Below are positions 1-12,176 of a DNA stretch of 51,818 nucleotides, piece after piece (the first letter of the stretch is position 1; each line of letters opens with the position of its first letter). The position numbers were made by a program, and so were the translations under genes. Below the pieces are notes generated by a model, which was not told where the DNA came from, did no database searches, and worked only from the letters and a program-made list of their open reading frames with translations. The stretch comes from an uncultured Erysipelotrichaceae bacterium. Lineage in GTDB: Bacteria > Bacillota_I > Bacilli_A > Erysipelotrichales > Erysipelotrichaceae. The stretch covers positions 1-51,818 of the forward strand of contig CALVGQ010000065.1 of NCBI GenBank assembly GCA_944327135.1. The letters run 5' to 3'.

Positions 1-660
1 TTCTGGTTCTCCAAGGTGAAGCGGAATGTTCTGCTTGTGGCTGGCTTCATGCAGCTTGTCCCAGATTTCCTTGATTTCTTTGGTCAGATACCAATAGGTT
101 CCGCCGAATCCGGCATTATGCAAAGAATACATGAAATCCGGCTGCAGTTCATCGATCAATTTCATCAATGCCTGAGTTTCTGGAATCGGCTTATCATAGC
201 TGTATTTTTTATAATGGAACGGGAAGGTCCATTCGACCTGTTCATAGCCAGCTGGCCGGAAATAATTGCGGGCGTAGTTGCTAAGTGTGATCGGTCCTTT
301 GAACCATTTCTCGTTTAGCTGGGTGCCGTCGATATCGATGCTTTTGATCAGATACCAGGTATAGCCCAGTTCTTCGCGCAAAGCGTCATCCTCGGCCAAA
401 GCACGGCTGAAATATTCCAGCATCATGGCGCCCATTGGCTCATTTGGATGCGGGCAGCCAAACATCAGCGCTTTCTTTGGACCATCTCCAATTTTCAAAC
501 ACAGAATCGGATGTCCTTTACGGGATTTTCCGGCTTCGAAGACCGTGACGATATCTGGATATTCCTTTGCTAATTTGCGGGAGCTTTCATCCATTTCGTC
601 GACAGTCAGAAAAACCTGATAATCCGGAATGTTGTTAATCAGTTTTGAAAAATCTGCCAT
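1..660 (-). CDS. M14-family zinc carboxypeptidase (3' part missing)
   Basis: The gene starts at an ATG at 660 behind a strong AGGAGGAG site and reads open to the window edge, so only the first 220 residues are visible. His71 and Glu74 form the HxxE zinc motif in the segment CPHPNEP. His181 in LHNAGFGG is the expected third zinc ligand of the M14 (carboxypeptidase A) fold. No signal peptide is visible, so the enzyme is probably cytoplasmic and trims imported peptides or related amides. It lies downstream of an S9 peptidase and near two amidohydrolases and a peptide-type importer, which fits peptide scavenging. The exact substrate cannot be told. The C-terminal part with the catalytic glutamate is outside the window. 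Confidence 0.8.
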   Translation of the reverse strand, partial: MADFSKLINNIPDYQVFLTVDEMDESSRKLAKEYPDIVTVFEAGKSRKGHPILCLKIGDGPKKALMFGCPHPNEPMGAMMLEYFSRALAEDDALREELGYTWYLIKSIDIDGTQLNEKWFKGPITLSNYARNYFRPAGYEQVEWTFPFHYKKYSYDKPIPETQALMKLIDELQPDFMYSLHNAGFGGTYWYLTKEIKEIWDKLHEASHKQNIPLHLGEPE

Positions 661-688
661 GTTTTCTCCTCCTTGAACAGTTAATTTC

Positions 689-694
689 ATTATA
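689..694 (-). promoter_or_regulatory. -10 element for the M14 gene
   Basis: On the minus strand the sequence reads TATAAT, about 30 bases before the start codon of the M14 gene. No convincing -35 hexamer was found at 16-18 bases, so this is a candidate only. Confidence 0.35.
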
Positions 695-755
695 CTAGTT
701 TTGATGGTTTTTCATAGCAGAACTTTTCAAACTGCTGAAAAATTTTCAAACAAAT

Positions 756-780
756 GAAAAAAGCAGCGTTTAGCTGCTTC
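756..780 (-). terminator. Intrinsic terminator of the S9 peptidase gene
   Basis: On the minus strand GAAGCAGC, a TAAAC loop and GCTGC form a stem of seven pairs followed by a run of six T. It lies just after the S9 peptidase stop codon and separates that gene from the M14 gene, so the two are probably transcribed separately. Confidence 0.75.
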
Positions 781-783
781 GTT

Positions 784-2772
784 TTATTTTAAATGAGCAT
801 CAAACCAGTTCAGCATTTCAGTCAGCCGTTTGATCCGATGGGAAGGCTTTCCAAAGATCGGCAGTCCATGATGATCGCCATGGAACAGCAAAAACCGGGT
901 TTCGGTTTGATGCAGCTTAAGCGCATAGAACATTTGGATTGGCTCTGCGATCCAGCAGCGGTAATCCTGATCGGAATGAATGAACATCGTTGGGGTCTTG
1001 ACCTGATTGGCATATTTTAGCGGAGACTGCTCCCAAACCAAGCCGATATCGCTCCACGGGTCAGCGGCTTGATTGGAAATGTTGTAAGTAAAGCCGATAT
1101 CGGTGCAAAGGAATTTGGTCACATAGTTGGAAATGCTGGCTTCCGGAATGGCTGCTTTGAAACGGTTGGTCTGGGTGATGATCCAGTTAGTCATGTAGCC
1201 GCCATAAGAGCTTCCGGTGACGCCCAATCGATTTTGATCCAGCGCTGGATAGCGGCGGAGCACTTCGTCGGTAAAGGTCATCAGGTCCTGATAATCCTCT
1301 TTGCCAAAGCGGCCGCGAATGTCGGCAAAGGCATTGCCACGGGAATCCGAACCGCGCGGATTGCAGAAAAAGACAAAGTAGCCGTTGTTGGCAAACCATT
1401 GCATTTCATGGTTGATGACTGGACCGAAGGTGCCTTTTGGGCCGCCATGGATTTCCAGGATCCCTGGGTATTTTTGATTTGGATCGTAATCGACTGGCTT
1501 GATCACAAAGCCTTCATGACGGATCCCGTCGCTTTCAAAGGCAAATGTTTCGATCGGGCTGAAGCTGGTGCTTTCCATCATTGGTGTATTGAAATGGGTA
1601 AGCTGGATTTCTTCATTATCTTTGAGCAGATAGATTTCCTGAAGCTTCTGATCGCGCAGTCCGATAAATAGGATGCGGCCGTCCTTAAAGACATCAAAGC
1701 TTTCAATGCCGCCATGATAGCCGCTAAGCTGAGTGATTTCGCCTTTTTCATTGAAGCATTTCATGCAGCCGTTGTTTTCATCGCTGCAGCTGAAATAGAT
1801 CCAGCCATTGGCTTCCTTGACGGCAGAGCCGAATTGCTGGATGCAATCGGAGCCCAGGGAGGCGCCATAGCTATTATCGAAATGAACCAGCGCATGACGT
1901 TTTCCATCGGAATCGATTTCAAACAGGGTCCCATGCTGATGATAGCCGTATTTTTCAAAGCTGCTCAAGCTGGCAATGATTTTGTTTTGACAGAAGAAAG
2001 CCCAGTTTACGGCCACCTCGCCTGCTTCAACTAGTGTTTTCTTTTCATGGCTTGCCAGATCGTAAAGGATCAAAGCGCTTGGAATGACACGCACATCAAC
2101 CATGGGATTTTCGATCAACAGCAGCTTGCCGTCTTTAACATGGGCGATCGACGCATTGGCCATGCGGTTTGAGATCGGCTCATAGGCTTGTGTCTGGCAG
2201 TCGAAAAGATAAAGCTGGGTCCGCTTTTGATTGGTAATGCCGGCACCATTGGCCCAGAACGGGATTTCATCAAACCATTCAAATTCTTTCTGGCTTTTGA
2301 GCGTTTCTTTGACTTGGGAACGCTTTTGTTCATTTTCACATTCAAAGAAGTTCAGACCATCAGCCCGGACGGAAACACTCAGGATCAGATGATTATCATC
2401 TGCTTTTTCAAAACCACTGACATTCATCGGAAGGCGAAACCATTCCTGGGCTTCGCCGCCATGGATATTCAGCTTGTAAAAGACAGTCCAGGATTCCTGA
2501 TCGGCTTTTTTCTCCTGCAGCTGTTTGTCGCGGCAGCCGCTGAAAACGATCGTGTCTGAATCCCACCAGATGAAGCTGCGTTCTTCCTGTCCGCTGGTTA
2601 GCGGGAAGACCGCATGACTAGCCAGGTCCATCCGCCACAGATTACCAGGATAACTGTCGGTCTGCTGATCTCCGGTAATGAGGGCAAACACCGCCTGTTT
2701 TTCATCTGGAGAAATCTTAAGGTTGCCCAGATAAAAATAATTAATAAAATCTTCCGCTTTGACTTTGTTCAT
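784..2772 (-). CDS. S9-family serine peptidase (acylaminoacyl-peptidase type)
   Basis: This 662-residue protein is an alpha/beta-hydrolase peptidase of the prolyl oligopeptidase family, which cleaves short peptides or acylated N-terminal residues in the cytoplasm. The N-terminal ~400 residues have the irregular repeats of a beta-propeller. The C-terminal domain carries the nucleophile Ser522 in GSSYGG, Asp603 in HSDQDYR and a His at about 634 in HGDHHG. I chose the ATG at 2772 because GAGGAG sits just upstream. An in-frame ATG at 2862 would add 30 residues with no homologous look. An extended -10 (TGC TAAAAT, minus strand 2803-2798) precedes it. A terminator follows. Confidence 0.9.
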   Translation of the reverse strand: MNKVKAEDFINYFYLGNLKISPDEKQAVFALITGDQQTDSYPGNLWRMDLASHAVFPLTSGQEERSFIWWDSDTIVFSGCRDKQLQEKKADQESWTVFYKLNIHGGEAQEWFRLPMNVSGFEKADDNHLILSVSVRADGLNFFECENEQKRSQVKETLKSQKEFEWFDEIPFWANGAGITNQKRTQLYLFDCQTQAYEPISNRMANASIAHVKDGKLLLIENPMVDVRVIPSALILYDLASHEKKTLVEAGEVAVNWAFFCQNKIIASLSSFEKYGYHQHGTLFEIDSDGKRHALVHFDNSYGASLGSDCIQQFGSAVKEANGWIYFSCSDENNGCMKCFNEKGEITQLSGYHGGIESFDVFKDGRILFIGLRDQKLQEIYLLKDNEEIQLTHFNTPMMESTSFSPIETFAFESDGIRHEGFVIKPVDYDPNQKYPGILEIHGGPKGTFGPVINHEMQWFANNGYFVFFCNPRGSDSRGNAFADIRGRFGKEDYQDLMTFTDEVLRRYPALDQNRLGVTGSSYGGYMTNWIITQTNRFKAAIPEASISNYVTKFLCTDIGFTYNISNQAADPWSDIGLVWEQSPLKYANQVKTPTMFIHSDQDYRCWIAEPIQMFYALKLHQTETRFLLFHGDHHGLPIFGKPSHRIKRLTEMLNWFDAHLK

Positions 2773-2901
2773 AATTCTCCTCTTTTCCTCTGTGGCTATT
2801 TTAGCATAGAAAACAGAAAAAGAATGGTTCATTTTTGCTTTCTTGTGAATGGTTAAGCACAAAGTCCTGGAGTTTTTTCTTCCTCCTTTGAAAGATTGCG
2901 C

Positions 2902-2907
2902 TATAAT
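2902..2907 (+). promoter_or_regulatory. -10 element upstream of the amidohydrolase pair
   Basis: TATAAT occurs 37 bases before the amidohydrolase start. The -35 region is poor (T/C-rich), so either an activator or a weak promoter is implied. Confidence 0.4.
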
Positions 2908-2943
2908 AGAAGCAACATGGATAGAAAAAGGGGGAGATCAAAC

Positions 2944-4089
2944 ATGAAGATCGTGATTAAAAACGGAAATCTGCACGACGGAAGAGGCAGCGTGCTGCCT
3001 AAGACCGATGTGCTGATCGAAGATGGAAAGATCATGCAGATCGCAAAGGATCTTTCGATTAAAGCAGACTGCGTCATTGATGCAGAAAATAAGGAAGTGC
3101 TTCCAGGATGGATCGATCCGGTTAGCGGCTGGGGCTGTGCAGCAGGAAGAGGACAAGCGCGGGATAACGATGAGCAAAGTGAGGCCATCACGCCGCAGCT
3201 GTCTGCTTACTATGCCTTTGATCCAGAAAGTATGAAATATCAGAAGCTGTATGAAATGGGAATTACCAGTGCAGGAATTGCACCCGCCAATTCCAATCTG
3301 CTGGGCGGCAGCATGGCCGTGTTCAAATGCTGGGGAGAAGGCCTGGAAGACATGCTGGTGAAGGAAGGCTGTGCAATGAAAGGCTCCCTGACTCAGTTCA
3401 AAAACGTTTATGGAAGCCGCAAGGTGCTGCCAATGACCCGCATGGGAGCGTTTGATCTGCTGAAGGAAACGCTGCGTAAGGCAGAAAAGATGGAAGAGGC
3501 AGAAAAGGATGAGAAGCTGAAGGCGCTTGAACCGGTATTAAAAGGAGAAAAAGCGTTGGTCATGAGCTGCAATACGGCAGCAGATATCGCGGCCTTAAGG
3601 CATTTGCTGAAGGATCGAAAGATCCGGCTGACGATTGCCAATGCCTATGGTCTTTCCAAGGCGCTGCTGGAAACAGACTGCCCGATCGTTTTGGGTGATC
3701 TGACTGATGGTTTCAGCAAGTTCAATCAGGCGGTGGATTATGATACGCTGTTTGCGATGATTCAGCAGGGCCGTCCTGTGGCCTTGAGCGCCTTCGGAGA
3801 TGGAGCATCGCCAGGCCGAGAGATCCTGCTTTGGAACGCGCAGGAGATTGCCCGGCAGGCGGCCAAACGAGGATTGGATTTTAATGAGGAAGATCTTTTG
3901 ATGCTGCTGAGCTGGAATCCGGCTAGGATCCTGGGGGTAGAGGATCAGATTGGAAGTCTGGCCCCGGGATTGGATGCAGATCTGATCGTTTGGACGGCCA
4001 ATCCGCTGGTCAGCAACCGTGCTCAGGCAGAAACGGTTATCATTTCAGGAAAGATCGTAAAAGGGGGAAATCAGGATGAAGCTGATTAA
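2944..4089 (+). CDS. Amidohydrolase paralogue lacking metal-binding histidines
   Basis: This 381-residue protein aligns end to end with the amidohydrolase encoded directly after it: shared PMTRMG, shared IT-SA-IAP, and C-terminal NPAR/NPAK with the usual GSLAPG-DADLIVW ending. The catalytic residues are gone. The DAHSHIG motif of its neighbour is DPVSGWG here (Val60 and Gly62 for the two His), the MHC motif is MSC, and LDHAWG is IANAYG. Only the late Asp (GDG) seems kept. The reading frame is intact and overlaps the next gene by 14 bases, so this is not simple decay. It is probably a partner or regulatory subunit of the active paralogue. The ATG at 2944 follows a GGGGGAGA site; the longer frame to 2896 has no ribosome site. 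Confidence 0.8.
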   Translation: MKIVIKNGNLHDGRGSVLPKTDVLIEDGKIMQIAKDLSIKADCVIDAENKEVLPGWIDPVSGWGCAAGRGQARDNDEQSEAITPQLSAYYAFDPESMKYQKLYEMGITSAGIAPANSNLLGGSMAVFKCWGEGLEDMLVKEGCAMKGSLTQFKNVYGSRKVLPMTRMGAFDLLKETLRKAEKMEEAEKDEKLKALEPVLKGEKALVMSCNTAADIAALRHLLKDRKIRLTIANAYGLSKALLETDCPIVLGDLTDGFSKFNQAVDYDTLFAMIQQGRPVALSAFGDGASPGREILLWNAQEIARQAAKRGLDFNEEDLLMLLSWNPARILGVEDQIGSLAPGLDADLIVWTANPLVSNRAQAETVIISGKIVKGGNQDEAD

Positions 4090-5227
4090 AAATGCGAAGA
4101 TCATGACGATGGATGCGCAGGGCGTCCTGGAAAAAGGCGATCTTTTGATCGATCAGGGAAAAATCGTAGAAATCGGGACAAATCTTTTTGAACCTTCGGC
4201 AGAAATCATCGATGCAGAAGGATTGATTGCTTTGCCGGGATTGGTTGATGCACATAGCCATATCGGAGGTTTTGATATCATCACCGGGGCACAGGATGTC
4301 AATGAGATGACTGATAAAGTGACGGCTGAGATGGAAATTGCCGATGGACTGGATCCGTACTCACCGATGTTTCTTGAAGCGCTGGAAGCTGGAATCACGA
4401 CCAGTGCCATTGCCCCAGGCAGCGGCAACGTCATCGGGGGCCTGGTTTCAGCTGTGAAGTCCAGCGGAAAAACGATGGATGAGATGATCCTGAAAAAAGA
4501 GGTTGCCTTGAAGATGGCGATGGGCGGCAATCCGAAGGGGGTCTATGGCTCTCGCAATCAGCTGCCGATGACACGGATGGGAGTGGCGGCCGTTTTACGC
4601 AAGTATTTCCGAGATGTAAAAGAATACATGCGAAAGCAGGAAGAAGGAAAAACAGATCCAACCAAGCTGCCTGTGTATGATCCGGCAATGGAAAACGGAG
4701 CCAAGGTGCTGCGTAAGGAAATTCCGGTCAAGATGCACTGTACCCAGTTTGATATGATGACGGTGATCAATCTGGCGAAGGAATTTGATTTTGAATTTAC
4801 ACTGGATCATGCGTGGGGCGCGTCACGCTATCTGGATGAGTTGGTCGCAGCGCATTGTCCGATCCTGTTTGGCCCGATTGCTGTTGCGAAGGGCTTTGGC
4901 GAGTCGCTGCTGATCGATATTGACAGCGTGGCTGAGCTGGATCGGCGCGGTGTGGAATGCAGCCTGATCACAGATGGACCGGTGTATCATCCATGGACGC
5001 TGCTGCAGGAAGCAGGCGAAGTTGTACGGGCAGGGCTGGAAACCGAGCGTGTGCTGCGGATGGTGACTATCAACCCTGCGAAGGTTATGGGCTGTGCCGA
5101 TCGGATTGGTTCTTTGGCGAAGGGCAAAGATGCGGATATTGTTTTGTTTCATGGAATGCCGGCAGAAAGCGTTTCGGCCTATGCGGTCATGACTTTGGTC
5201 AACGGAGAGATCGTTTATCGCAATTGA
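4076..5227 (+). CDS. Metal-dependent amidohydrolase
   Basis: This 383-residue cytoplasmic enzyme belongs to the amidohydrolase superfamily (imidazolonepropionase/dipeptidase-like group), which hydrolyses C-N bonds with one or two metals. The expected ligands are visible: His60 and His62 in DAHSHIG, a His in VKMHCTQ, a His in LDHAWG and an Asp in ITDGP. The C-terminal NPAKVMG...GSLAKGKDADIV strand pair is typical of the family. It starts inside the end of the degenerate paralogue (14-base overlap), so the two are translationally coupled and may form a complex. An importer of peptide type follows after a terminator. The substrate is unknown; a dipeptide or cyclic amide is likely. Confidence 0.85.
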   Translation: MKLIKNAKIMTMDAQGVLEKGDLLIDQGKIVEIGTNLFEPSAEIIDAEGLIALPGLVDAHSHIGGFDIITGAQDVNEMTDKVTAEMEIADGLDPYSPMFLEALEAGITTSAIAPGSGNVIGGLVSAVKSSGKTMDEMILKKEVALKMAMGGNPKGVYGSRNQLPMTRMGVAAVLRKYFRDVKEYMRKQEEGKTDPTKLPVYDPAMENGAKVLRKEIPVKMHCTQFDMMTVINLAKEFDFEFTLDHAWGASRYLDELVAAHCPILFGPIAVAKGFGESLLIDIDSVAELDRRGVECSLITDGPVYHPWTLLQEAGEVVRAGLETERVLRMVTINPAKVMGCADRIGSLAKGKDADIVLFHGMPAESVSAYAVMTLVNGEIVYRN

Positions 5228-5248
5228 AAATTTTTACATTTAAAAATA

Positions 5249-5281
5249 ATCGGCCGAATGAGGGCATTCGGCTGATTTTTG
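5249..5281 (+). terminator. Intrinsic terminator after the amidohydrolase pair
   Basis: ATCGGCCGAATG and CATTCGGCTGAT form a 12-pair stem (one G-U) with an AGGG loop, followed by TTTTT. It ends the amidohydrolase operon before the importer operon. Confidence 0.85.
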
Positions 5282-5366
5282 TCACAAAAAAATCGGAAAA
5301 TGTTGGATAAATGGGACTTTCTGATAAAAAAAATCGGTTCAAACTTCCATTTTAAAAATTTTAAGG

Positions 5367-5372
5367 TATAAT
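5367..5372 (+). promoter_or_regulatory. -10 element of the peptide importer operon
   Basis: TATAAT lies 79 bases before the first permease gene, in an A+T-rich stretch. No good -35 was found at the right distance. Confidence 0.4.
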
Positions 5373-5451
5373 GGTTAGGTGAAATTCTTTTCATTTGTAT
5401 GAAACAAGAATTTTTTCTTACAAAATTTGCTGTAAAAAGGAGAAGAAGAAA

Positions 5452-6417
5452 ATGAAACGTTACATTGGAAAACGTGCGCTCAGTGGAATTCTGGTCGTTA
5501 TCCTGTCAGTTTGTTTCAACTTCACGCTGATTCGGCTGGCGCCAGGCGATCCAGTGCGGATCATTGCGGGCTTGGATAACCCAAATGAGCAGCAGATCCA
5601 GGTGCTTCGTGAGAAGTATGGCCTGGATAAGTCGATTCCGGAACAGTTCGTCATGTTCCTGAAACAGGTTTCTCAAGGGGATCTTGGGTATTCGTATGTC
5701 AGTGATCGTCCGGTGGTGGACATGATCGTTGAAAAAGTCGGACCGACCCTGACGCTGACGCTGACCGCGGTGCTGCTTTCAGTAACCCTGGGAACGCTGA
5801 TCGGAATTTACGCGGCACGAAAAAATGGTTCCTGGTTTGACAAGCTGGTGTGCAATCTGTCGTATTTCTTTGATGCGACACCGGGCTTCTGGCTAGGACT
5901 GATGATGATCATCGTCTTTGCATCGTATTTGAAGCTGCTTCCGACCTCCGGGATGGTCAGCTTGAAAAACAATTATACAGGCCTGAAATATATTCAGGAT
6001 GTGGCGCGTCATCTGGTTTTGCCGATTTCGACGATGGTTTTGACCCAGACCCCATATTATTTCCGGATTGCCCGTTCTTCAGTACTGCAGGCGATGTCAG
6101 AGGATTACATTATCACCTTCCGGGCAACCGGAATGAAAGAAAGTCGTATTTTTAATAAATATGTTCTGCGAAATGCGATCCTGCCAACCGTTACGGTGTT
6201 GGGAATGAGCCTTGGTTTCCTGCTTTCCGGTTCCGTTTTGATTGAAACCGTTTTTGCATGGCCAGGCATGGGCCGGATGATGTTTACTGCGATTGGTAAG
6301 CGGGATTATCCGCTGCTGACCGGAATTTATCTGGTAACATCGGTCATGATTTGCATCGCGATGATTTTGGTGGATATCCTGTATGGATTGATCGATCCGC
6401 GAATTCGCTATGATTAG
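5452..6417 (+). CDS. Peptide-type ABC transporter permease (OppB/DppB family)
   Basis: This 321-residue membrane protein is the first of two permeases of a peptide/nickel-type ABC importer. It has the family N-terminal pattern (YIGKRALSGI, then FTLIRLAPGDP), about six membrane segments, and the cytoplasmic EAA-like loop (FRATGMKESRIFNKYVLRNAILP) that contacts the ATPases. The ATG at 5452 follows AAGGAGAAG; an in-frame start 57 bases upstream has no such site. It is followed 11 bases later by the second permease. No binding-protein gene is in this operon. Confidence 0.9.
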   Translation: MKRYIGKRALSGILVVILSVCFNFTLIRLAPGDPVRIIAGLDNPNEQQIQVLREKYGLDKSIPEQFVMFLKQVSQGDLGYSYVSDRPVVDMIVEKVGPTLTLTLTAVLLSVTLGTLIGIYAARKNGSWFDKLVCNLSYFFDATPGFWLGLMMIIVFASYLKLLPTSGMVSLKNNYTGLKYIQDVARHLVLPISTMVLTQTPYYFRIARSSVLQAMSEDYIITFRATGMKESRIFNKYVLRNAILPTVTVLGMSLGFLLSGSVLIETVFAWPGMGRMMFTAIGKRDYPLLTGIYLVTSVMICIAMILVDILYGLIDPRIRYD

Positions 6418-6428
6418 AGGGGGAAACC

Positions 6429-7280
6429 ATGAAAAAGAGAACATTTTTCAGTCAGTTTAAGCATGTGATCAAAACCAATGCACAGCTTCGAACCGGCTTG
6501 ATCTGCCTGGTGATTTTGGTGACGGTAGCCTTGCTGGCACCGGTATTGGCACCATGCGATCCTTATAAATTGTATGATTCCATTCTGGCTAAGCCGGGAA
6601 CTTCAGGTCATATTTTAGGGACAGATGGTTTGGGCCGGGATGTTTTGAGCCAGATCCTGTATGGCGCAAGAACTTCGTTGATGATCGGTGTTGTTGCGGC
6701 TTCGATTTCTGGAATTATCGGAACCTGTATCGGCGGCATTGCCGGATTTTTCGGAGGAAAAGTTGACCGGTTTGTTTCGGAGTTTATGAACTTCTTTTTG
6801 ATGACACCGTCTTTCTTCCTGATTCTGATCATTGTTGCTTTGTTTGGCAGCAACATCATGTATATCATGATTGTCATCGGTTTTACTTCCTGGACAGGAA
6901 ATGCTCGTTTGATGCGGGCCCAGGCGATTTCTTTGAAGGAACGGACCTTTGTAAAAAGTGCGACAGCAATGGGCGAAGGCAAGTTTGCCATCATGTTTAA
7001 GCATATCATTCCAAACGGAATTTTCCCGATCGTGGCTCAGACGACCATGAACGTTTCCAGTGCGATCCTTTCAGAGGCAGGACTTTCCTTCCTTGGCTTG
7101 GGAGATCCTAATGTTGTCAGCTGGGGACAGATGATTTCACATGGCAAACAGTACATGCTGAAGGGCTGGTGGATTGCCGCCTTTGCGGGAATTGCCGTTA
7201 TCTTTACCGTTCTGACCTTCTTTATGATCGGTGACGGAATGAACCGCGTTCTCTCTCCGAAGATGAACAGCAATAACTAG
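6429..7280 (+). CDS. Peptide-type ABC transporter permease (OppC/DppC family)
   Basis: This 283-residue integral membrane protein is the second permease of the importer. The N-terminal cytoplasmic segment, one membrane span and the motif HILGTDGLGRDVLSQILYGARTSL are diagnostic of the OppC/DppC family. The EAA loop follows at about residues 160-200 (GEGKFAIMFKHIIPNGIFPI). It starts 11 bases after the first permease behind AGAGGGGG and ends 14 bases before the first ATPase start, so it is in the same operon. Confidence 0.92.
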   Translation: MKKRTFFSQFKHVIKTNAQLRTGLICLVILVTVALLAPVLAPCDPYKLYDSILAKPGTSGHILGTDGLGRDVLSQILYGARTSLMIGVVAASISGIIGTCIGGIAGFFGGKVDRFVSEFMNFFLMTPSFFLILIIVALFGSNIMYIMIVIGFTSWTGNARLMRAQAISLKERTFVKSATAMGEGKFAIMFKHIIPNGIFPIVAQTTMNVSSAILSEAGLSFLGLGDPNVVSWGQMISHGKQYMLKGWWIAAFAGIAVIFTVLTFFMIGDGMNRVLSPKMNSNN

Positions 7281-7294
7281 GAAGGAGAATGAGG

Positions 7295-8257
7295 ATGAGC
7301 TTATTAGAATTAAAAGATGTGAATGTCCAGTACATTCTAAAAGATAAAAAGATCATGGCTTGTCAGCATATCGATCTGGAAATCGAAGAACGGGATTCGA
7401 TCGGAATCGTAGGAGAATCCGGATCGGGAAAGTCGACGCTGGCCAATGCGATCCTGCGGCTTTTGCCAAAACGGATCACGGCCGTTGATGGAGAAATCCT
7501 TTTTGAAGGAAAAGATTTGCTGAAAATTACGCCGGAAGAGCTGAATGCCCTTCGCTGGAAAGAAATTTCTGTCGTTTTCCAGAAATCCATGAATGCTTTG
7601 AGTCCGGTGCATAAAGTGGGAAAACAGATGGAAGATGTTTATCGGATCCACGAGCCGAAAGCTAATCGTGATGAAATCCGTAAACGGGTCTATGAACTGT
7701 TTAAGATCGTCAATCTTTCTGATCGGGTTTATGAATTGTATCCACATGAGCTGTCCGGAGGAATGATGCAGCGGGTATCGATCGCCCTTTCGCTGCTGCA
7801 TAATCCAAAGCTGCTGGTCTTGGATGAAGCGACGACCGCTCTGGATGTGGTCACTCAGAGCCAGATCCTGCAGGAAATCATGAAGCTGGAAGAAAACATG
7901 AACCTGACCCGGATCATGATCACGCATGATGTTTCCGTTGTAGCCAGCACCTGTAAAAAGATTGCGGTAATGTATGCCGGATGCTTGATGGAAACCGGTA
8001 CCGTTCAGGATGTATTGGTCAATCCGAAGCATCCGTATACTCAGGGACTGTTGAAATCGTTCCCGTCCTTTAAGGGGGCAAAGAACGATCTGCGGGGAAT
8101 TCCAGGATCGCTTCCAGATCTGAGCCAGGAAATCCAAGGCTGTGTTTTCGCAGATCGCTGTCCATATGCCGATGATCGCTGCCGTCAGGAAAAACCGGTA
8201 TTGCGGGTTGTGAATGGCTGCTGGAAAGTCGCATGTCATAAAGCAGGAGGTGAATAA
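7295..8257 (+). CDS. Peptide-type ABC transporter ATPase (OppD/DppD family)
   Basis: This 320-residue ATPase energises the importer. It shows Walker A GESGSGKST, signature LSGGMMQR and Walker B LLVLDEATTALD. The C-terminal region has the cysteine-containing oligopeptide-transporter tail (CVFADRCPYADDRCRQ), typical of OppD/OppF proteins. I chose the second ATG (7295) because GAAGGAG at 7281-7287 is only one base from the ATG at 7289 but seven from this one. The next gene begins two bases after its stop. Confidence 0.9.
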   Translation: MSLLELKDVNVQYILKDKKIMACQHIDLEIEERDSIGIVGESGSGKSTLANAILRLLPKRITAVDGEILFEGKDLLKITPEELNALRWKEISVVFQKSMNALSPVHKVGKQMEDVYRIHEPKANRDEIRKRVYELFKIVNLSDRVYELYPHELSGGMMQRVSIALSLLHNPKLLVLDEATTALDVVTQSQILQEIMKLEENMNLTRIMITHDVSVVASTCKKIAVMYAGCLMETGTVQDVLVNPKHPYTQGLLKSFPSFKGAKNDLRGIPGSLPDLSQEIQGCVFADRCPYADDRCRQEKPVLRVVNGCWKVACHKAGGE

Positions 8258-8259
8258 GC

Positions 8260-9270
8260 GTGTCCAACGTGAATGAAGAAGTCATCAGCGTCAAAGACCT
8301 GACACGCTGGTATGTTCAAAAAAAGGTCACCAAGCAGGATGGCAAGACCAGCCGAAAACAAACGATCAAAGCGGTCGACGGAGTGACCTTTAGTTTAAAG
8401 GCCGGAGAAACACTGGGGGTCATTGGAGAATCCGGTTGTGGAAAATCGACCTTGGGAAGAGTTTTGATTTATTTGGAAAATCCTTCTACAGGAGAAATCA
8501 GCTATCATGGAAAGTCAGCGAAGCAGCTGATTAAAGAAGACCGGCTGAAATTCCGCCGGACCTGTCAGATGATCTTCCAGAATCCATTTGATACCTTTGA
8601 TCCGCGCTATACGATTGAAAAGATCTTCATGAGCACTTTGAAGCTTCATAGCATCGGGAAAAATGAGGAGGAACGCCGTCAGATCATTTTGGATACGTTG
8701 ACCAAAGCAGGATTAGCTCCGGCAGAGGATTATCTCTATCGGCATCCGCATGAGCTTTCAGGAGGTCAGCTGCAGCGAATTTCGATTCTTCGTTCGATGC
8801 TGCTGAAACCGTCCTTTCTAGTAGCGGATGAGCCGGTAAGCATGCTGGATGTATCCATTCGTGCTGATATCATCAACATGCTGCAGGAGCTAAGCGAAAA
8901 GGAAAATACAGCAATGGTCTTTATCAGCCATGATATTGCCACGACGCGGTATATTTCCAATCGGGTAGCCGTCATGTATCTGGGACGGATCGTAGAAACG
9001 GGCAATACCGATGAAGTTTTGCATAATCCGCAGCATCCTTATACCAAAGTGCTGATTTCCAACTGTGCATCGTTGGATCCGCTGGAAAAACGGGAGATCA
9101 TTGAGATTGACGGTGAACCGCCAACCCCAATTAACACAGGCCCGGGATGCTATTTCGCACCACGCTGTTATAAGGCATGCGAAAAATGCTTCAAGGAATA
9201 TCCGGGGGCAGTGGATCTGGGACATGGTCATATCGTACACTGTCATTTTGCCGAAAAAGAAGAACAATAA
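8260..9270 (+). CDS. Peptide-type ABC transporter ATPase (OppF/DppF family)
   Basis: This 336-residue ATPase is the second nucleotide-binding subunit of the importer. Walker A is GESGCGKST, the signature is LSGGQLQR, and Walker B is FLVADEPVSMLD. The C-terminal CYFAPRCYKACEKC segment is the family's cysteine-rich tail. The start is a GTG at 8260, set by AGGAGG at 8245-8250 and lying two bases after the previous stop. It is the last gene of the operon; a terminator follows at once. Confidence 0.9.
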   Translation: MSNVNEEVISVKDLTRWYVQKKVTKQDGKTSRKQTIKAVDGVTFSLKAGETLGVIGESGCGKSTLGRVLIYLENPSTGEISYHGKSAKQLIKEDRLKFRRTCQMIFQNPFDTFDPRYTIEKIFMSTLKLHSIGKNEEERRQIILDTLTKAGLAPAEDYLYRHPHELSGGQLQRISILRSMLLKPSFLVADEPVSMLDVSIRADIINMLQELSEKENTAMVFISHDIATTRYISNRVAVMYLGRIVETGNTDEVLHNPQHPYTKVLISNCASLDPLEKREIIEIDGEPPTPINTGPGCYFAPRCYKACEKCFKEYPGAVDLGHGHIVHCHFAEKEEQ

Positions 9271-9336
9271 AAAAACAGCGCAGCATGCTTGTCTTGTCGG
9301 TTGATCAGGGCAAGGATCAGTGCTGTTTTTCTTTTT
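9271..9336 (+). terminator. Terminator of the peptide importer operon
   Basis: AAAAACAGCG at 9271 pairs with TGCTGTTTTT at 9321-9330, with further inner pairing (CTTGTC with GGCAAG). A run of T follows. The first arm starts one base after the stop codon. Confidence 0.7.
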
Positions 9337-9342
9337 TCCAAG

Positions 9343-9362
9343 TTATTGACATATGCCAATAA
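9343..9362 (+). promoter_or_regulatory. 20-bp palindrome over a -35 hexamer: candidate operator
   Basis: TTATTGACATATGCCAATAA is an inverted repeat with a single mismatched pair. It contains the -35 hexamer TTGACA of the promoter of the DUF134-NifX gene. A partial third half-site (ATGCCATAAT) follows at 9365-9374 and overlaps the -10. The gene product has a DNA-binding domain, so autoregulation is the simplest guess. Confidence 0.5.
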
Positions 9363-9374
9363 TGATGCCATAAT
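9346..9374 (+). promoter_or_regulatory. Sigma-A type promoter of the DUF134-NifX gene
   Basis: TTGACA (9346-9351), a 17-base spacer and CATAAT (9369-9374) form a near-consensus promoter 22 bases before the start codon of the gene. Confidence 0.75.
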
Positions 9375-9395
9375 AGCTCATGAAGAGGTGAAAGG

Positions 9396-10094
9396 ATGCC
9401 AAGACCTTGTAAAAAACGAACGATCAGTGCTTTGCCAGGCTGCTGTCGGTTTCATCCTGATAAACAAGTTCATCCGCAGAATGCGGTGATCCTGTCCTTG
9501 GATGAATATGAAGTCATTCGTTTGATCGATCTGGAGGGCTGCAGTCAAAAGCATTGCGCGGACCGCATGGGTGTTGCACGTTCGACGGTTCAGGCGATCT
9601 ATGACAGCGCACGAAAAAAACTGGCACAGTTTTTAGTCATGCAGACCGAGCTGCGAATCGAAGGCGGAAATTTCACTTTAGATCAACACAAGGAGGAAAA
9701 GACAATGAGAGCAGCAGTTCCTTTTGAACAGGGCGAAGTATTTCAGCATTTTGGACATACGACACAATTCAAATTTTATCATCTGATGAATGGGCAGATC
9801 GTCTCAAGCATGATCGTGGATACGCAAGGACAGGGTCATGGCCAGCTGGCGGCCTTTTTAAAAAAGAACCAGGTGGATATCCTGATTTGCGGCGGGATCG
9901 GTCAGGGAGCAAAAAATGCTTTGCAGGAAAAGGGCATTCAGATCTTTCCGGGAGTTACGGGCAGTGCAGATGAGGCAGTCCAGTCTTATTTGAAGGGAAC
10001 GCTGAATTTTGATCCGGCCAGCCGCTGCGATCATCATGATCATGATCACGAGGCTTGCGGGGCTCATGAATGCCATTGCAGCGATCATCATTAA
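9396..10094 (+). CDS. DUF134 DNA-binding domain fused to NifX/NifB-type cofactor-binding domain
   Basis: Residues 1-90 match the DUF134 family (MPRPCKKR start, LDEYEVIRLIDLEG, then a helix-turn-helix GVARSTVQAIYDSARKKLA), a sigma-like DNA-binding fold. Residues ~103-205 match the dinitrogenase Fe-Mo cofactor-binding family (VFQHFGHT, then DILICGGIGQGAKNAL). The last 23 residues are rich in His, Cys and Asp and should bind metal. Together they suggest a metal- or cluster-sensing regulator. This fusion is known in anaerobes, but its role is not settled. The start follows AGAGGTGA. It is a single-gene unit between its own promoter with palindrome and its own terminator. No nitrogenase genes are nearby. 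Confidence 0.85.
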   Translation: MPRPCKKRTISALPGCCRFHPDKQVHPQNAVILSLDEYEVIRLIDLEGCSQKHCADRMGVARSTVQAIYDSARKKLAQFLVMQTELRIEGGNFTLDQHKEEKTMRAAVPFEQGEVFQHFGHTTQFKFYHLMNGQIVSSMIVDTQGQGHGQLAAFLKKNQVDILICGGIGQGAKNALQEKGIQIFPGVTGSADEAVQSYLKGTLNFDPASRCDHHDHDHEACGAHECHCSDHH

Positions 10095-10112
10095 ATGATG
10101 ATCGTTTTTTTT
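10082..10112 (+). terminator. Terminator whose loop is the stop codon
   Basis: CGATCATCAT and ATGATGATCG form a perfect ten-pair stem and the three-base loop is exactly the TAA stop codon at 10092-10094. Eight T follow. Confidence 0.85.
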
Positions 10113-10176
10113 CTAAAAAAGACAGAATCAAAGAAATTTGAACCAATACAGAAAAGTCAAGGACAGGAGGGACGCG

Positions 10177-10668
10177 ATGTCATTCTGGAAAAAGTTTCAA
10201 AGAAAAAAAGAACGGCTGATCGATCAGCTAGAAAAAAAAGGGGCTGCGGATCCAGCCGCAAACCGTCTGCTTTTTTTAGATTTTGATGGGGTCTTTCTTT
10301 CTGCTTCCAATGATCCCAGAGTCCTTATGGGCAACATCATGACCTTTGTGCAAGAATATGATTTTCATCTTGTGATCGCCTCTTCCTGGAGAACCCATCC
10401 GGAAACAGCCTATAAGACCCTGAAAAAATCAGGATGTACGGCGGTGATTGAGGGGAAGACGCCATTTCTTAGCGGGCCTCGTTACCGTGAAATTGCGGAT
10501 TATCTGATGAAGCATCCTTTTTCAGAATTTTTTATTTTGGATGATCTGGATATGGGACCGCTTCGCACTCATGCGGTTCGGACAGAGCTGATCATCGGAT
10601 TTAATCAAGAAAAATTAGAAGAAGCGCAAAGAAAGATGCAAGCCTTGCTTCAGCGCAAGGAAAGATAG
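10177..10668 (+). CDS. Small HAD-superfamily protein
   Basis: This 163-residue protein has HAD motif I LFLDFDGV (Asp35, Asp37), motif II Ser/Trp in ASSWRTH and the acidic motif ILDDLDM near residue 130. It resembles the HAD domains found with polynucleotide repair enzymes, where SSWR is common, rather than sugar phosphatases. The basic N-terminal ~25 residues could bind nucleic acid. The start at 10177 is set by AGGAGG at 10165-10170; a TTG start upstream would have no such site. It converges on glpK with only five bases between the genes. The substrate is unknown. Confidence 0.7.
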   Translation: MSFWKKFQRKKERLIDQLEKKGAADPAANRLLFLDFDGVFLSASNDPRVLMGNIMTFVQEYDFHLVIASSWRTHPETAYKTLKKSGCTAVIEGKTPFLSGPRYREIADYLMKHPFSEFFILDDLDMGPLRTHAVRTELIIGFNQEKLEEAQRKMQALLQRKER

Positions 10669-10673
10669 GGGTT

Positions 10674-12176
10674 TTATTGCTGCCCTTTTGGATCCAGGGA
10701 ATGCCAAAGACAGGATTCGACCGCTTTTTTCCAGCCTGCATAGCGCTGCTTTGCTTGGCTGCTTGAAAGTGCGGGTGTAAAACGCTGTTGGGTCACCGTG
10801 CCTAAATCATCGATAGTCCAGAATCCAACGGCTAAGCCAGCTAAATGAGCGGCACCTAGGGCCGTAGTTTCACTGATCGTGAGCCGTTCTACTGGAATTT
10901 GCAGAAGATCGCTTTGGAATTGCAGCAGAAAATTGTTGCGTGTTGCTCCGCCATCGACCCGCAGCACTTCGATCTTGGTTCCAACATCCTGCTGCATGGC
11001 CTCCAAGATATCGCGGCTTTGATAAGCGATCGCTTCTAAAGCGGCCCGTGCTAAATGGTTGCGGGTCACTCCGCGGGTCAAACCCAATATGGCTCCGCGG
11101 CACTGATCGTTCCAGTAAGGGGCTCCCAAACCGACAAATGCCGGGACGATGTAGACACCGTCGTTGTCTTCAAGGCTGGCGGCCATGGCTTCTGTTTCGG
11201 CTGCATCGTCAAAAAGGCCGAGTCCATCACGCAGCCACTGAATCAGACTGCCGCAGACAAAGATGCTGCCTTCCAGCGCATATTGTATTTTTCCGTCGAT
11301 TTCCCAGGCAATCGTGCTGACCAGACCATGCTTGGATTCGATTGGCTGATCGCCGGTGTTCATCAGTAAAAAGCCGCCAGTACCATAGGTGTTTTTCACC
11401 ATTCCTTTTTTCAAACATCCCTGACCAAACAGCGCGGCCTGCTGGTCGCCAATCACCGCAGTGATCGGAATCTGTTGATTAAAGAAATGATATGGAGCCG
11501 TCGTTGTGTAGGTACAGGAAGATGGCATGACCTTTGGCAGCATGATCTTAGGAATATTGAAGTAAGCCAACAGCTGATCATCCCAGCAGCACTGGTGGAT
11601 ATTATAAAGCAGGGTTCGTGAAGCATTGGAAACATCGGTAATATGAACCTGATCGCCGCTGAGCTTGTAGACCAGCCAGCTGTCAATGGTGCCAAAGAGA
11701 AGATCGCCGTTTTCTGCTCGTTTTTGGCCGTTTGGAATCGTATCCAGGATCCAGCGGATCTTGGATGCGGAAAAATACGGATCGACTTTTAATCCGGTGC
11801 GCTCTAGGATATCCGTTTCCAAACCACGCTGCTTGATGGTCTGGCAAATGGCATCGCTTTGGCGTGATTGCCAGACAACGGCGTGATAGACGGGCATTCC
11901 GGTTTGGCGATCCCAGACGACAGCAGTTTCTCGCTGATTGGTGATGCCAATGGCAGCGACCTGTTTGGGATCGATGCCGGCTTGTTGAACGACCTCAGCC
12001 ATGACGGAAAGGGTAGTGAGCCAGATCTCATTGGCATCATGCTCGACCCATCCGGGATGCGGAAAAAACTGGGTAAATTCTTTTTGAGCAACGGCTCGAA
12101 TTGATGAATCGTGATCAAATAAAATGGCCCGGGTGCTGGTGGTTCCCTGATCGATGGCCAAAATCAATTTTTCCAT
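10674..12176 (-). CDS. glpK: Glycerol kinase
   Basis: This 500-residue FGGY-family kinase phosphorylates glycerol to sn-glycerol 3-phosphate in the cytoplasm. The N-terminal LAIDQGTTSTRAILFD is the first phosphate-binding loop. GDQQAALFGQG and RVDGGATRNNFLLQFQSDLL are classic GlpK signatures, and the length is that of the family (~500). The start at 12176 follows AAAGGAG on the minus strand. No glpF or glpD is adjacent, so it is a lone gene here; the Ugp-like importer at 19.6-25.1 kb may supply related substrates. It faces the HAD gene tail to tail and is divergent from tmk. Confidence 0.95.
   Translation of the reverse strand: MEKLILAIDQGTTSTRAILFDHDSSIRAVAQKEFTQFFPHPGWVEHDANEIWLTTLSVMAEVVQQAGIDPKQVAAIGITNQRETAVVWDRQTGMPVYHAVVWQSRQSDAICQTIKQRGLETDILERTGLKVDPYFSASKIRWILDTIPNGQKRAENGDLLFGTIDSWLVYKLSGDQVHITDVSNASRTLLYNIHQCCWDDQLLAYFNIPKIMLPKVMPSSCTYTTTAPYHFFNQQIPITAVIGDQQAALFGQGCLKKGMVKNTYGTGGFLLMNTGDQPIESKHGLVSTIAWEIDGKIQYALEGSIFVCGSLIQWLRDGLGLFDDAAETEAMAASLEDNDGVYIVPAFVGLGAPYWNDQCRGAILGLTRGVTRNHLARAALEAIAYQSRDILEAMQQDVGTKIEVLRVDGGATRNNFLLQFQSDLLQIPVERLTISETTALGAAHLAGLAVGFWTIDDLGTVTQQRFTPALSSSQAKQRYAGWKKAVESCLWHSLDPKGQQ

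Follow-up and report, generated by a model that had tools for sequence, protein, structure and literature searches.

An overlapping gene pair encoding a metal-site-dead amidohydrolase paralogue and its live partner in Erysipelotrichaceae and other bacteria

The window (the whole 51,818-nucleotide stretch of DNA that was analysed, from an uncultured Erysipelotrichaceae bacterium) carries two overlapping genes of the amidohydrolase superfamily, the first of which encodes a protein, P0001, that has lost the metal ligands still present in its neighbour, P0002. Is P0001 a broken gene, or is it maintained for something other than catalysis? An earlier note on this DNA took the second view, and the evidence from sequence comparison presented here supports its reading of P0001 as a protein selected for a non-catalytic role. 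Most probably, P0001 is no broken gene but the non-catalytic partner in a two-part enzyme that requires both of its subunits.

The gene pair and its metal sites

P0001 (381 amino acids) is encoded by an intact reading frame at positions 2944..4089 of the + strand, and P0002 (383 amino acids) by positions 4076..5227 of the same strand. The coordinates, the intact frame and the 14-nt overlap agree with the earlier note: bases 4076..4089 on the + strand, ATGAAGCTGATTAA, are common to both genes. A Shine-Dalgarno-like AAAGGGGGAAA lies immediately 5' of this overlap, within the 3' end of the P0001 gene, and the overlap is likely to couple translation of the two genes. The region 2770-5460 contains no sigma-70-like promoter that we could find, and a comparison of 2700-5500 with Rfam gave no match. 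Just 3' of the P0002 gene, a GC-rich hairpin at 5253-5272 is followed on the + strand by TGATTTTT, and the scan listed this hairpin on the - strand only; the transcript of the pair could stop there, ahead of the transporter genes.

The two proteins are 33% identical over 389 columns (BLASTP, E 6e-52), with similarity that spans their whole length, and both score above the Pfam cut-offs for the amidohydrolase superfamily (PF01979/PF07969). The closest solved relative of each is an amidohydrolase of Thermotoga maritima, 3ooq (E 2.5e-79 for P0002 and 1.3e-38 for P0001). AF2 models of P0001 and P0002 have pLDDT values of 88 and 91, respectively, and the best match to the P0001 model in the PDB is again 3ooq, at a TM of 0.85-0.87. 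Both the Pfam scores and the model therefore bear out the claim that P0001 has kept the fold, a TIM barrel plus a beta-sandwich.

A catalytic metal enzyme of the amidohydrolase superfamily carries a His-x-His motif, a Lys, two further His and an Asp. P0002 has all six residues (H60, H62, K146, H221, H245 and D300), and P0001 retains a single one of them, the strand-4 Lys K146, which probably corresponds to the bridging Lys that is carboxylated in this superfamily. Codons 60-62 of P0001 (3121..3129, + strand) encode Val-Ser-Gly and align with the His-x-His motif of P0002, codon 208 (3565..3567, + strand) encodes a Ser aligned with the third His ligand, H221, and codon 233 (3640..3642, + strand) encodes an Asn aligned with the fourth, H245. 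The substitutions from P0002 to P0001 are thus H60V, H62G, H221S (MHC to MSC) and H245N (DHAWG to NAYG), and the Asp at the catalytic position (D300 of P0002, in the motif ITDGP) is absent as well. The earlier note had identified the replacement of all four His ligands correctly, but it had missed both the loss of D300 and the retention of K146. P0001 also lacks the active-site residues G115-S116, N152-P153, K219, E276 and P302, which are invariant in the live clade, and its version of the helical hairpin past residue 166 is shorter.

The same division extends to the homologues. Every one of 106 live homologues has the complete set of six site residues, and none of the 40 dead proteins (after duplicate removal and with a planctomycete locus excluded) retains the residue corresponding to H60, H221, H245 or D300; a His at H62 persists in one of the 40. 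The strand-4 Lys is found in 37/40 dead proteins, and the remaining three have Arg, Val or Met in its place. The loss of the site in P0001 is neither chance nor error. With its catalytic residues gone and its fold and selection retained, P0001 fits the sequence definition of a pseudoenzyme, and the dead half of such annotated 'amidohydrolase' pairs cannot be a metal hydrolase.

Distribution, pairing and origin of the family

A search of other genomes, which the earlier note had proposed as a check, found the same pair in many gut and other anaerobic bacteria, so it is not confined to the genome of the window. A scan of named genomes yielded 39 loci with the pair family, among them loci in Holdemania, Traorella massiliensis, Clostridium polynesiense, three Tissierella, Negativibacillus massiliensis, a Halanaerobiales MAG, and Erysipelotrichaceae and Lachnospiraceae MAGs; within the window's own bacterial family, dead/live pairs are present in several further genera. 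The genome of the window contains four tandem pairs of the amidohydrolase family, in two of which the first gene is dead (contig 65, which is the window, and contig 99), and four Holdemania genomes have three dead/live pairs apiece, which indicates that the pair has been duplicated as a unit.

In the other two tandem pairs of the window's genome, C97 (6480-8775) and C27 (9-2273), both copies have a full metal site, and similar live/live tandem pairs occur in Holdemania. These pairs may resemble the state that preceded the loss of one site. A further arrangement is seen in a Planctomycetota MAG (DRQF01000259, L111:2763-12798), where several amidohydrolase-like ORFs without a metal site are followed by a single live copy; one of the dead ORFs encodes a 964-amino-acid two-domain protein, and at least some of the N-termini resemble signal peptides. 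Judging by this example, the family may form 'many dead, one live' arrays elsewhere as well. We saw no natural fusion of dead and live proteins among these loci, and an apparent 1343-amino-acid fusion in Holdemania filiformis (L046) is an artefact in which an N run within the dead gene joins unrelated sequence.

The pairing of the dead and live genes is strict. Among loci located via the dead protein, the live gene lies directly downstream on the same strand for 38/38 dead genes with readable downstream sequence, the other two of the 40 being at a contig end. The two genes overlap in 37 of these 38 pairs and are separated by a 1-nt gap in the remaining one. Overlap lengths are mostly 1, 4, 7, 10 or 13 nt, compared with 14 nt for the window pair, and two pairs have a longer apparent overlap owing to an uncertain start codon. 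We also ran the reverse test, in which P0002 was searched against the 273 genomes of the window's own family only and live genes were assigned to the partner clade at E at or below 1e-100, after which the hits show a gap to 1e-83. In this search, 23/23 partner-clade live genes have a dead gene upstream; in one case the pair is split between two contigs, and in another a stretch of N interrupts the dead gene.

When the metal columns and those next to them are masked, all dead proteins group in a single clade (bootstrap 100, SH-aLRT 100). Its sister is a clade composed of live partners only, a result that a quick tree likewise gives, and the two clades have matching sub-groups. This sister relationship indicates that the dead copy was derived by duplication of the live enzyme, and the single dead clade at 100/100 rules out multiple independent losses of the site. 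The pairwise distance matrices of dead and live proteins are correlated, with r = 0.86 against 0.16 for the best of 500 permutations. For the 14 loci where both transporter permeases are linked to the pair, the dead-live correlation is 0.96, and the partial r after regression on OppB/OppC permease distances is 0.91, against 0.45 for the best of 1000 permutations. The co-divergence of dead and live proteins thus exceeds that of dead proteins and the transporter.

The dead genes are under strong purifying selection. Estimates of dN/dS (Nei-Gojobori, unsaturated dS) range from 0.05 to 0.32 among dead genes and from 0.03 to 0.19 among live genes; the values of 0.21-0.32 for the window dead gene versus Holdemania are rough, since dS is 1.6-2.0. 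The earlier note had offered a dN/dS near 1, or relaxed selection, as a test of its own reading, and this test came out in its favour. The dead genes do diverge faster, with an amino-acid distance about 1.4 times that of the live genes.

Peptide context and the role of the dead protein

The setting of the pair in the window is one of peptide import and degradation. Upstream and on the - strand are an M14 zinc carboxypeptidase gene truncated by the contig end (1..690) and a gene for an S9 prolyl-oligopeptidase-family peptidase (784..2862), which is divergent from the pair and a neighbour, not a pair member. Downstream on the + strand is a recurrent neighbour, an oligopeptide/dipeptide ABC transporter (5395..9270) with two permeases (5395-6417 and 6429-7280) and two ATPases (7289-8257 and 8260-9270). 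The peptide-degradation setting that the earlier note described recurs in other genera: within the fetched stretches of 35 pair loci, Opp-type transporter permeases are found at 20, M14 genes at 9 and S9 genes of one family at 8, and an M24 aminopeptidase-P-like gene lies near some Tissierella pairs. This recurrent context makes a role for the pair in the use of imported peptides likely. Peptide-related genes are absent from around several Holdemania pairs. The Holdemania orthologues closest to the window pair (L074, L075, L076 and L085; about 442-5809 and 8411-10697) have no adjoining peptide transporter; upstream of them are a PTS sugar system, a GH4 glycosidase and a second amidohydrolase-family gene, and downstream are a DUF362 ferredoxin-like protein and a PGA_cap protein.

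We consider it probable that P0001 and P0002 form an ancient enzyme/pseudoenzyme heteromer that acts as one unit and whose live subunit hydrolyses imported peptides. An ancestral, probably homo-oligomeric amidohydrolase gene, a relative of that of the T. maritima protein, would have been duplicated in tandem; one copy would have retained the metal site while the upstream copy shed all four His and the Asp, along with the substrate-contact residues around them, and retained the fold and a conserved D-x-x-E loop (D74/E77). The overlapping genes would couple synthesis of the two chains, and the dead chain would then join the live chain in a hetero-oligomer in which it may stabilise, position, gate or allosterically control the active subunit. 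The live subunit may act on small peptides or on N-acyl amino acids that enter through the neighbouring oligopeptide transporter, perhaps once S9, M14 or M24 peptidases have trimmed the imported peptides.

D74 and E77 are invariant across the dead clade, and their loop falls in a stretch that the monomer model of P0001 predicts with low confidence (residues 67-73 and 75-77 score below 50). Contact with the partner would be one explanation for a loop that is modelled with low confidence and yet invariant. It is possible, though we hold this only tentatively, that the family represents a widespread and so far undescribed class of obligate heteromeric amidohydrolase in anaerobic Bacillota, in which this loop takes on an ordered conformation only in contact with the live subunit, whose peptide-binding site it helps to form or gate.

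Overlapping genes and mirrored trees could also be expected of two proteins that have no more than a pathway in common. P0001 might be a stand-alone ligand-binding or regulatory protein, a sensor or buffer of substrate or product made from the same operon without a stable complex, and the barrel fold retained in its model, the strict linkage and the dead-specific conserved residues H11, G13, F170 and W297 are compatible with such a role. The lining of the former pocket is variable in the dead clade, however, which is a poor fit to a conserved ligand site, and co-divergence is stronger with the live partner than with the transporter, so that we regard this alternative as rather unlikely.

The pattern of conservation also bears on whether the dead protein has become an enzyme of another kind, with metal-free or differently metallated chemistry, for example via the retained strand-4 Lys. 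The positions that are constant across both clades are for the most part glycines and prolines of the scaffold, along with the D74/E77 loop and K146, and the high retention of K146, the scaffold and some invariant polar residues would suit such an enzyme. Fixed in the live clade alone are the ligands and G115-S116, N152-P153, R167, K219, E276 and P302, many of them adjacent to ligands in sequence; most of these positions are variable in the dead clade, with R167 becoming mostly Lys. The former metal-site positions drift freely among many residue types while the scaffold residues, D74/E77 and K146 stay constant, and the dead clade has no fixed replacement set for the lost ligands, which argues against a new active site. 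Moreover, the three dead proteins without the Lys belong to otherwise ordinary pairs. New chemistry is therefore improbable.

A transient folding or metal-loading chaperone of the live subunit, absent from the mature enzyme, would gain from the upstream position and the overlap, by which the dead chain is made just before the live chain, but nothing specific points to this role and a near-full-length paralogue would be an unusual chaperone, which leaves it very improbable. Finally, a decaying duplicate retained by chance would account for the faster evolution of the dead copy, but a pseudogene in progress or a sequencing error is ruled out for practical purposes by open frames and full length in 40 homologues across several bacterial classes, dN/dS well below 1, a single ancient origin and strict pairing.

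Comparison with known systems

The earlier note had considered a pair of this kind to be undescribed. In the open-licence literature we found no description of a dead/live amidohydrolase pair, which, given the literature covered, is weak evidence of novelty; papers naming TM0814 or 3ooq were likewise not found there, and matches to cd01309 were all unrelated. The claim may hold for the amidohydrolase family of such pairs, but not for the principle, as heteromers of an enzyme and its dead paralogue are already known. The 3ooq protein itself, which has no assigned function, differs from the window pair in being one protein with an intact His-x-His site and no known dead partner.

The best parallels in principle are the trypanosome AdoMetDC/prozyme and deoxyhypusine synthase/dead paralogue systems, in which a heteromer is needed for full activity and both binding and activation have been measured (PMC5201418, PMC3663545). 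Like these prozymes, P0001 is a dead paralogue of its enzyme derived by duplication. Those systems are eukaryotic and of unrelated folds, however, and for P0001/P0002 binding and activation are what we infer. In Pseudomonas aspartate transcarbamoylase, the pseudo-dihydroorotase (pDHO) chain is, like P0001, an inactive member of the amidohydrolase superfamily, yet its partner enzyme needs it in order to be active (PMC7053772). That partner is a transcarbamoylase (pyrB) and pDHO belongs to another branch of the superfamily, whereas the partner in the P0001 family is a live paralogue in 38/38 readable pairs. The AibH1H2 hydroxylase combines a catalytic and a structural chain, both from the amidohydrolase superfamily, with a Mn/Fe cofactor, and AibH1 still binds metal (PMC12141560). 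Both of its chains are metal-binding and the reaction is a hydroxylation, unlike P0001, which is without the ligand set, and no AibH entry is among the listed sequence or fold matches of P0001. M16 peptidases consist of two halves that are both needed, with active-site residues typically in one only (PMC12731061), but their fold and zinc motif differ from those of the window pair.

None of these analogues (prozyme, pDHO, AibH1H2 and M16) is the same family or arrangement as P0001/P0002. What began as a single odd gene is now a testable family with dozens of natural enzyme/pseudoenzyme pairs of one origin, and it offers several independent pair duplications and live/live tandem pairs in the same genomes. 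A live gene of the family that is assayed alone may fail with its dead partner missing. The family is well suited to studying how a homomeric enzyme turns into an obligate dead/live heteromer, and why.
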